From Bradyrhizobium sp. CCBAU 51765 (GTDB lineage Bacteria; Pseudomonadota; Alphaproteobacteria; Rhizobiales; Xanthobacteraceae): a stretch of DNA of 64,000 nucleotides. The stretch's first letter is position 1, and every line of letters begins with the position of its first letter. Below, piece after piece: positions 49,562-51,704 of the stretch. Under the pieces are notes generated by a model. It saw nothing but the letters and a program-made list of their open reading frames with translations. It had not been told where the DNA came from and made no database searches. The translations under genes were made by a program, and so were the position numbers. The DNA lies in the NCBI RefSeq assembly GCF_015291725.1, contig NZ_CP030038.1, positions 2,159,001-2,223,000 on the forward strand, written 5' to 3'.

Positions 49562-50494
49562 ATGGCACAGGCGCACGCCTTCGCGCAGAAATTCGAACGG
49601 TTCTTGCATTTGAAGGATGCGCCGCCAACGCTGGTCACGCGTTCGCTGCGCAGCGCCGAGCTCGCCGTCACCGAGACGCGGGATGACCATCCGATTCCGC
49701 GCCTCTCCGAGTCGATGCCCTCGGAGGACGCCTATCTCGTCAGCCTCAAATTCCGCGATTTCGCAGGTTGTGAGTGCTGGGAGCGCGGCCGATGCGTGAT
49801 CAAGCGCGATATCCGCGCCGGCGCCACTTATCTGTACGACCTGAAGCGTGATCCGCGCTACGTGATCGACAAGCCCTTCCATTCTCTGTTCTTCCATCTG
49901 CCCCGTTCGGCGTTGGACGACATGGCGAGGCAAAGCGGCGCGCCGCGGATCGGTGAGCTCGCCTATCAGCCCGGCGTCGGCCACGACGATATGACGATCC
50001 GTCATCTCGGCGCGTCGTTCCTGGCGGCGTTGCGGCAGCCCGAAGAGGCCAACCGGCTCTTCATCGACCACATGATGCTCGCGCTCACCGCACATGTTGC
50101 GACGACCTATGGCGGATTGCGGCGCGCCGCCGAGCCGGCGCGCGGCGGCCTCGCCCCCTGGCAGGTGAAGCGGGCTTGTGAAAGGCTGGAGTCCGATCTC
50201 CGCGGAAAGCTTTCGCTGGAGAAGATCGCAGCCGAGTTCGATCTCTCGGCCAGTCATTTTTCGCGCGCGTTTCGCGTCTCGACCGGCCTGCCGCCGCACC
50301 AATGGCTGCTGCGCCAGCGCGTGGACACGGCCAAGCAATTGATGACGGTGCGCGACCTGTCGCTGGCGGAGATCGCGATATCGGCCGGGTTCGCCAATCA
50401 AAGCCACTTCACCCGGGTGTTTTCCTCGGTGGTCGGCGTCAGCCCGGGACTGTGGCGCCGTGAGGCGCAGGGCGTGCCGGACGGCGAAGCGTGA
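49562..50494 (+). CDS. AraC family transcriptional regulator
   Basis: A 310-residue regulator. The N-terminal ligand-type domain (about 20-190) has the AraC pattern (DMARQSGAPRIGEL, GHDDMTIRHLGASF). The DNA-binding domain occupies the last 100 residues with two helix-turn-helix units: LEKIAAEFDLSASHFSRAF and LAEIAISAGFANQSHFTRVF, closing with GVSPGLWRR. The start ATG at 49562 is supported by normal N-terminal length. It converges with the catalase-like gene (nine bases between), so its target is more likely elsewhere. Confidence 0.9.
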   Translation: MAQAHAFAQKFERFLHLKDAPPTLVTRSLRSAELAVTETRDDHPIPRLSESMPSEDAYLVSLKFRDFAGCECWERGRCVIKRDIRAGATYLYDLKRDPRYVIDKPFHSLFFHLPRSALDDMARQSGAPRIGELAYQPGVGHDDMTIRHLGASFLAALRQPEEANRLFIDHMMLALTAHVATTYGGLRRAAEPARGGLAPWQVKRACERLESDLRGKLSLEKIAAEFDLSASHFSRAFRVSTGLPPHQWLLRQRVDTAKQLMTVRDLSLAEIAISAGFANQSHFTRVFSSVVGVSPGLWRREAQGVPDGEA

Positions 50495-50503
50495 TCCCTC
50501 CGT

Positions 50504-51394
50504 TCAGCGGCGCTCGGTCTGGGAGAGGGCATAGGCGTCGCGCCGCGCCGCAAATATCTCGTCCGGCGGATGGCCGATGCCTTCGGCAAGATTGGCTGGA
50601 TTGAACCCGGACGCATCGCACGTTTCGTTTGATTCAGTGCGCGTTATCACGATCGTTCCGAGGCGCACCGCTTCGCGTCCATCCTCGTCGGGCCAACGGA
50701 TGGTCACGTCCATGACGGGATCGCCGGGACGGTCCAGCAGCGCCATCACGCTGAACCTGACATCGCGCGCCGCGATCCGGGAGTCGAGATCGCGCAGCAA
50801 GCCGGTGGACTTGGCTGTGGTGGCGTGCTCGCTCGGCCAGCGTTCGTCGCCGACCGGCGCGACCTTGAACTTGATGAACCGTGTCTCACCCCTCGCGTTC
50901 GTTGCGGGAAAGGCGTGCACGCCCCAATAGGTCGTGCAGGCGAGGCTTGCCGGCGGCGGATTCGCGGCAAGGTAGCTTGCCTGACGCAGCGTCTCGGGAT
51001 TGGCGGCGGAGAATGCCTCGACCCGGGCCATGTCCGGCGTGCCGTCCGGTCCCGGCATGCGCGCCTGCAGGAAGGCCAGCATCTGGTCGAGCGTTCCGGC
51101 GAAATGAACCGGGACGCTCTGGGTGACGATATCGGAGAGCTGATTGCCGCTACCAAGCCGAAAGCTGAGACCGCGCAGCGAGCACCCGTCGATGTCGACC
51201 GCGTTCGCGGAGACGCCGTCCGCCGAGAAACGCGCCAGCACCCGGGAGGGCATGGTGAAGCTGCGGGACTTGGTGATCTCCTTGGCCTGATCCGAGGGGG
51301 CGTAGGTGCCGCGAACGCATCGGCCCCAGCAAAAGCTCGCCCGTGCCTTTGGCGGACGACCGGCAACCGCCCTCAGGACATCGACAACGGACAT
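50504..51394 (-). CDS. Catalase-family protein without the distal histidine
   Basis: A 296-residue protein of the small catalase-related peroxidase (SrpA-like) family. The usual RxxHAKG is replaced by RASFCWG (residues 18-24), so the distal haem histidine is a Phe (F21). The proximal Tyr is kept: the C-terminal RRDAYALS holds Y288 with an Arg four residues before. Other marks are SFTMPSRVLARFSADG, VPVHFAGTLDQMLAFL and the ARMPGPDGTPDMARVEAF region. The start is uncertain: ATG 51394 keeps the whole domain; the frame is open to a GTG at 51571 with no signal peptide. It is downstream of the AraC gene at 51705 on the same strand. Confidence 0.8.
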   Translation of the reverse strand: MSVVDVLRAVAGRPPKARASFCWGRCVRGTYAPSDQAKEITKSRSFTMPSRVLARFSADGVSANAVDIDGCSLRGLSFRLGSGNQLSDIVTQSVPVHFAGTLDQMLAFLQARMPGPDGTPDMARVEAFSAANPETLRQASYLAANPPPASLACTTYWGVHAFPATNARGETRFIKFKVAPVGDERWPSEHATTAKSTGLLRDLDSRIAARDVRFSVMALLDRPGDPVMDVTIRWPDEDGREAVRLGTIVITRTESNETCDASGFNPANLAEGIGHPPDEIFAARRDAYALSQTERR

Positions 51395-51704
51395 CGGTGT
51401 GGCTGCGCCGTTCGGGAGCTGAGTCAGAACGGAACCTTTGGATTCGAGCGATGGGCTTGTTTGTGGCGCAGGGTTCGCCGAAAAATCTTTCCCAAAGCCG
51501 ACATGCCTTGTCCGATCCTGCGACGAATCCCGCAACTCGCTGGCTCGGGACCAGCCGCTCGCTCGCGACACGGCTAGGGCATGTCCTCAACAAGCGATGG
51601 CCGCCTGATGTACGGTCTGCTGCCTACAGTGGCCGAAGAGCGAATGGTCTCGCAGGCCGCGGATGGGCCAGTAGCGGGACCTGCCGCAGATGGCCGCTAC
51701 AAAC
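51395..51704. other. Spacer between the AraC and catalase-like genes
   Basis: These 310 bases separate two minus-strand genes. They may contain the N-terminal extension of the catalase-like frame (to 51571) or its promoter. I see no hairpin strong enough to call a terminator and no repeat. Confidence 0.4.

Follow-up and report, generated by a model that had tools for sequence, protein, structure and literature searches.

A Bradyrhizobium clade of small catalase relatives with phenylalanine at the distal-histidine site and histidine at the gate-phenylalanine site

A small catalase-fold protein of Bradyrhizobium sp. CCBAU 51765 carries phenylalanine at the site of the catalase distal histidine and histidine at the site of the gate phenylalanine. 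It belongs to a natural clade found in roughly half the species sampled from this one genus of soil bacteria and symbionts, and the clade bears the change of an inactivated laboratory mutant, keeps its haem anchors and has a histidine at a second site in the pocket. The gene lies in a stretch of 64,000 nucleotides, here called the window (contig NZ_CP030038.1, positions 2,159,001 to 2,223,000 of the forward strand), and its product is referred to as P0001. The preferred reading, which we rate as evenly balanced between right and wrong, is that a branch of the SrpA-type proteins lost the distal histidine and rebuilt the distal pocket to give a tyrosine-ligated haem protein that would not be a catalase. 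'SrpA-type' is used here for what we take to be the small relatives of catalase, which RefSeq labels 'catalase family peroxidase'.

The open reading frame encodes 296 residues on the reverse strand with no internal stop (Table 1) and matches Pfam Catalase (PF00199, E 1.7e-17), bearing out the intact catalase-like frame of the original prediction, while an NCBIfam scan of P0001 returned a single weak match to catalase HPII far under its cut-off. The best solved structure by sequence is 3e4w, the 33 kDa catalase-related protein of Mycobacterium avium (E 5.7e-19), and an AlphaFold model of P0001 (mean pLDDT 86.2, pTM 0.86; input alignment A2 of 58 rows) superposes on 3e4y over 287 residues with Z 29.9 and rmsd 2.7. 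The 8.4 Mb genome holds two more Pfam Catalase genes, both with the motif HAKG, one encoding a small SrpA-type protein (L002) and the other a full-size catalase that offers a comparison.

Table 1. Coordinates in the window of the catalase-like gene, its pocket and haem-anchoring codons, its possible upstream start and the adjoining regulator
Feature	Position	Strand	Basis
Catalase-fold gene P0001 (296 aa plus stop)	50504..51394	-	ATG at 51394
AraC-family regulator, tail to tail	49562..50494	+	9 bases from the catalase-like stop; convergent partner at 99/105 loci
Possible upstream start: AAAGG, 7 bases, CTG	51425..51439	-	CTG aligned with the ATG of other orthologues
R18 codon, haem-propionate Arg site	51341..51343	-	R in 103/105
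F21 codon, catalase distal-His site	51332..51334	-	Gap-free alignment with 3e4w; F in 103/105 clade copies
R55 codon, haem-propionate Arg site	51230..51232	-	R in 103/105
Q92 codon, catalase distal-Asn site	51119..51121	-	Alignment; Q 70, E 33, H 2 of 105
H97 codon, catalase gate-Phe site	51104..51106	-	TQSVPVHF/GNNTPIFF alignment; H in 103/105; role of Phe from a passage of PMC9687031
R284 codon, proximal Arg	50543..50545	-	R in 103/105
Y288 codon, proximal Tyr	50531..50533	-	Y in 103/105; invariant in 58 rows of A2
R295 codon	50510..50512	-	Invariant in 58 rows of A2; spacing of seven after Tyr

The stretch RASFCWG of P0001 aligns without gaps with RALHAKG of 3e4w, F21 falling at the distal-histidine site as predicted from the letters alone, and a true histidine hidden by a shifted alignment was thereby ruled out at the classical site. 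The reservation that the true distal histidine might stand elsewhere fails at that site, and it may partly apply in another sense, His97 being aligned with a distal-side residue of catalases. H160 was considered as a substitute distal histidine and rejected, as it pairs with the histidine of the catalase GSH stretch, which we take to be the proximal 'Asn or His' position of catalases. Further along, TQSVPVHF of P0001 pairs with GNNTPIFF of full catalase, with Q92 at the distal-asparagine site and H97 at the first phenylalanine of the pair. Passages of a review give His92/Asn165 as the active pair of CAT-1 and describe the gate phenylalanine as sitting "just above the active site" (PMC9687031); the gate phenylalanine follows Asn165 by five residues, matching the step from Q92 to H97. 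On the alignment and this review H97 would be placed above the iron, and histidine and phenylalanine seem to have exchanged places between sites 21 and 97. Among the 105 non-redundant clade copies the F21 codons are TTT (68) and TTC (35) and the H97 codons CAT (89) and CAC (14). The two residues after F21 had been taken as part of the change; position 22 is alanine in 89/105 and position 23 lysine in 60/105 copies, and the Cys-Trp of the window is drift, a local variation outside the clade trait.

Passages of reviews call the distal histidine essential for catalases, and in its absence catalase turnover should fail, as the title of PDB entry 3hb6 ('Inactive mutant H54F of Proteus mirabilis catalase') says for the same exchange of histidine for phenylalanine. 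Residues 18-289 of P0001 align with 51-338 of the 3hb6 chain, hence position 21 corresponds to 54; 3hb6 differs in being an engineered catalase of full size whose gate region is normal. Conservation makes it very probable that catalase activity has been lost, in agreement with the earlier expectation that classic peroxide cleavage should fail.

The proximal motif RRDAYALS, which had been described as kept, pairs with the proximal tyrosine region of catalases, and Y288, R284, R18 and R55 are conserved as listed in Table 1, with H160 present in 105/105 clade copies. In a passage on the coral allene oxide synthase (AOS), R360 stands seven residues after Y353 (PMC5617202). The tyrosine and arginine, together with R18, R55 and R295, match haem-holding positions of catalases and the coral AOS, R295 by spacing only, and the conservation of these positions makes haem binding by the clade protein probable, as had been supposed. 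In yeast catalase A, putting valine in place of the gate phenylalanine reduced catalatic activity to 10% and greatly weakened haem binding, according to a passage of PMC9687031, so that haem binding by the clade proteins cannot be assumed.

The pocket is shared widely within the genus. Of 195 same-genus genomes, 154 have a match at E 0.001 and 94 have an orthologue, taken as a match of at least 281 bits and counted by hand from the match table, five of them having two. A clade with the same substitution, which the original prediction had suggested looking for, does exist. F21 and H97 each occur in 103 of the 105 non-redundant Bradyrhizobium-type copies, the H97 count being slightly self-favouring because copies were admitted to the clade either for having H97 or for an identity to the window above 45%. 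The exceptions, written as the residues at positions 21/97, are L112 (V/Y), L113 (S/H) and L204 (F/Y), and the commonness of F21 rules out a single-genome oddity or a sequencing error. In a wider set of 142 non-redundant relatives, from which the full-size catalase L003/L059 was dropped, position 21 is histidine in 65, phenylalanine in 52 and glycine in 21, the remaining 4 having some other residue or none. H97 accompanies phenylalanine in 52/52 rows, F97 accompanies histidine in 64 with Q97 in one (L073), and the glycine rows have N97 in 11 and F97 in 10. Five columns (21, 31, 43, 54 and 97) split F/H from H/F proteins under the rule that at least 95% of the 52 F/H rows share one residue and 85% or more of 15 H/F relatives have another, with L015, L080 and L083 left out. 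The same F/H pair is found in L246, on plasmid pHM2 of Rhizobium sp. SSA_523, which is 46% identical, has a signal-like N-terminus, bears the product name 'catalase family peroxidase' and adjoins genes annotated catalase and LysR. A search for the F/H type in 297 genomes of the family of G328, guessed to be Rhizobiaceae, gave 0/297 at E 1e-50 in a search run without a positive control, and no relative was found in the viral contigs searched.

On a tree of 101 rows built without the pocket columns, from which L015, L080, L083, L112, L113 and close duplicates were dropped, the F/H clade (support 100/100) is sister to G/N proteins (99/95 for the pair) and both lie inside the H/F proteins, with at least four changes between histidine and non-histidine at position 21. 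A second tree of 59 rows, comprising 52 chosen rows of the first and seven new relatives, runs inward from H/F through G/F rows, L079, the H/Q row L073 (96/89) and two groups of G/N to F/H, and requires four changes at position 21 and three at position 97; the placement of the lone G/F row L079 is unsure (84/73). As G/F rows diverge ahead of L073, this branching order implies that the distal histidine was lost more than once or was regained in L073. The pocket states are not, as far as the trees indicate, one clean series, and the distal histidine seems to have been lost repeatedly across these small catalase relatives. The F/H pair itself is essentially one evolutionary event and, being a single event, its co-occurrence is not repeated covariation. 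The combinations H/F, H/Q, G/F, G/N and F/H offer a ready series for asking how a haem pocket changes function. Four rows with G21 and F97 kept (L103, L104, L105 and L148) stand on branches apart from the main G clade.

Comparison with known systems places P0001 among the small catalase relatives. It shares with the 33 kDa protein of M. avium subsp. paratuberculosis (3e4w, 3e4y) a small one-domain catalase fold over the full length (Z 29.8-29.9, 24% identity) and differs from it in reading FCWG in place of HAKG. The SrpA-type proteins (L002, L082, L088 and others) are its nearest relatives on the trees and have the same haem-anchoring positions, P0001 being nested among HAKG members on both trees, but the commonest members have the HAKG motif with His21 and Phe97. 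A simple hydropathy scan found a strongly hydrophobic upstream stretch in 56/65 H rows and 11/21 G rows as against 1/105 clade copies, and the Bradyrhizobium F/H form is probably cytoplasmic. The G21/N97 relatives (L054, L055, L058, L242 and others), the closest group on the trees, likewise lack the distal histidine and have a polar residue at 97, but read Gly-Ala-Lys-Gly where P0001 has its phenylalanine and, among the sequences inspected, mostly have signal-like N-termini. Of the residues that mark monofunctional haem catalases, P0001 has the proximal tyrosine and arginine (Y288 and R284) and lacks the distal histidine (F21) and asparagine (Q92). The coral catalase-related AOS and hydroperoxide lyase likewise share the catalase fold without acting as H2O2 scavengers, but, in the passages of PMC5617202 on these enzymes, they keep Thr66, His67 and Asn137 where P0001 has S20-F21 and Q92. 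Taken together, these alignments and trees assign P0001 by descent to the small catalase relatives and, by its residues, set it apart from an AOS of the coral type. A search of open-licence literature, by title and opening of the abstract, brought up no description of the F21/H97 clade.

Under the preferred reading, an SrpA-type branch would have dropped the catalase distal histidine, with phenylalanine taking its site and histidine that of the gate phenylalanine. Haem would be bound through Tyr288, and His97 together with Gln/Glu92 would supply the polar groups that histidine and asparagine give in catalase. The cytoplasmic Bradyrhizobium form would then act on a hydroperoxide, or else on some other small ligand of haem, in a role coupled to the convergent AraC regulator. 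That His97 serves as a new acid-base or ligand-contacting group is a tentative proposal, somewhat short of an even chance. A little more doubtful still is the fuller version in which the working histidine moved to the gate-phenylalanine place, possibly via the H/Gln and Gly/Asn states, to give an inverted distal geometry with a reaction of its own. Against the preferred reading stand the yeast mutant, the single origin of the F/H pair and the mixed branching order described above, and also the observations that ten G21 rows keep F97, such that loss of the histidine is not always matched by a polar residue at 97, and that constraint is weaker in the subclade of the window (see below).

The most constant feature of the setting is an AraC-family gene tail to tail with the catalase-like gene, present at 99/105 loci and missing from six; the median distance between the two genes is about 20 bp (9 bp in the window). 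The other neighbours change between Bradyrhizobium loci, so that the conserved unit is the two genes tail to tail (49562-51394), which behave as if they move together. Judged from one or two scanned cluster representatives, some Bradyrhizobium loci have recurrent neighbours of the P450, TetR and FAD-oxidoreductase types. Twenty loci from relatives of the G and H types, including that of the SrpA-type gene of the window genome, were searched for a widely shared neighbour and none was found, ORF picking having missed the catalase gene at L176, L177 and L184. This near-constant partner gives some weight to a different reading, in which the protein is a haem or gas sensor, or a haem carrier, whose state is passed to a partner such as the convergent AraC regulator. 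Loss of the acid-base histidine with retention of the haem anchors would suit such a role, as would a probably cytoplasmic location; tail-to-tail genes need not work jointly, however, the searches turned up no known sensor of catalase fold, and the secreted Rhizobium form (L246) lies in a different setting. We regard a sensor or carrier as unlikely, though worth serious consideration.

Two further features of the loci may be recorded. Ten copies of small proteins (about 90-130 residues), which have a signal-like N-terminus and are unmatched in Pfam, lie at 9 loci (for example L053:4557-4949, L114:2667-2948 and L045:8302-8646). In L053 and L114 they directly precede the catalase-like gene, and at the other loci they are close to an FAD oxidoreductase gene and a second AraC gene. 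The HAKG SrpA-type gene of the window genome (L167:3404-5692) adjoins genes for a cytochrome b561 (PF01292) and a ferritin-like protein (PF00210).

A protein that has lost its cofactor and kept a binding or structural role would account for the absence of the distal histidine and asparagine and would be in keeping with the damage to haem binding in the yeast gate-phenylalanine mutant. It would leave the retention of Tyr288, R284, R18, R55 and H160 without a purpose, these residues being needless without haem, and a haem-free protein is accordingly rated as improbable.

The translation start of P0001 is uncertain. In many orthologues an ATG, preceded by AAGG, stands 11 codons before the window ATG (51394); the same position is CTG, after an AGG-like site, in the window and in many of its close relatives, and a conserved CTG start in this group is possible. 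Counting from the first residue of the window protein to 30 codons upstream, ATG is present in 65/105 copies (the window included), GTG or TTG without ATG in 19, CTG alone in 18 and none of these in 3.

The clade gene is under purifying selection. With pairs sorted into three bins of dS, its median dN/dS is 0.29, 0.18 and 0.24, where the adjacent AraC gene gives 0.135, 0.154 and 0.206, and 74/296 sites are at least 98% conserved among the 105 copies. When the window is compared with the six closest relatives whose dS exceeds 0.1, dN/dS is 0.30-0.59 for the catalase-like gene and 0.11-0.16 for the AraC gene, indicating weaker constraint in this subclade. The window itself differs at 0/90 sites on which 97% or more of 88 other copies agree, and the hand-chosen subclade of 14 to which it belongs deviates at 0.0103 per near-invariant site compared with a mean of 0.0134 (maximum 0.0257) in random sets of 14, a test that left out L112, L113 and L015, the last a broken member of the same subclade. 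Slow decay, with the open frame as a remnant, could draw on the raised dN/dS of the subclade, the CTG in place of ATG at its likely start, the damaged copies L015 (frame altered at the C-terminus) and L121 (Tyr to Cys) and the divergent L112 and L113, but is highly improbable given the clade-wide conservation, the intact near-invariant sites of the window and the presence of the F/H pair in L246. The earlier argument that simple decay is unlikely for the window gene consequently stands, with the raised subclade dN/dS and the one broken subclade copy as caveats.

Two cysteines of P0001, C26 and C259, are conserved in 102/105 and 99/105 clade copies and in most of the wider relatives, and may possibly form a disulphide or a thiol switch.
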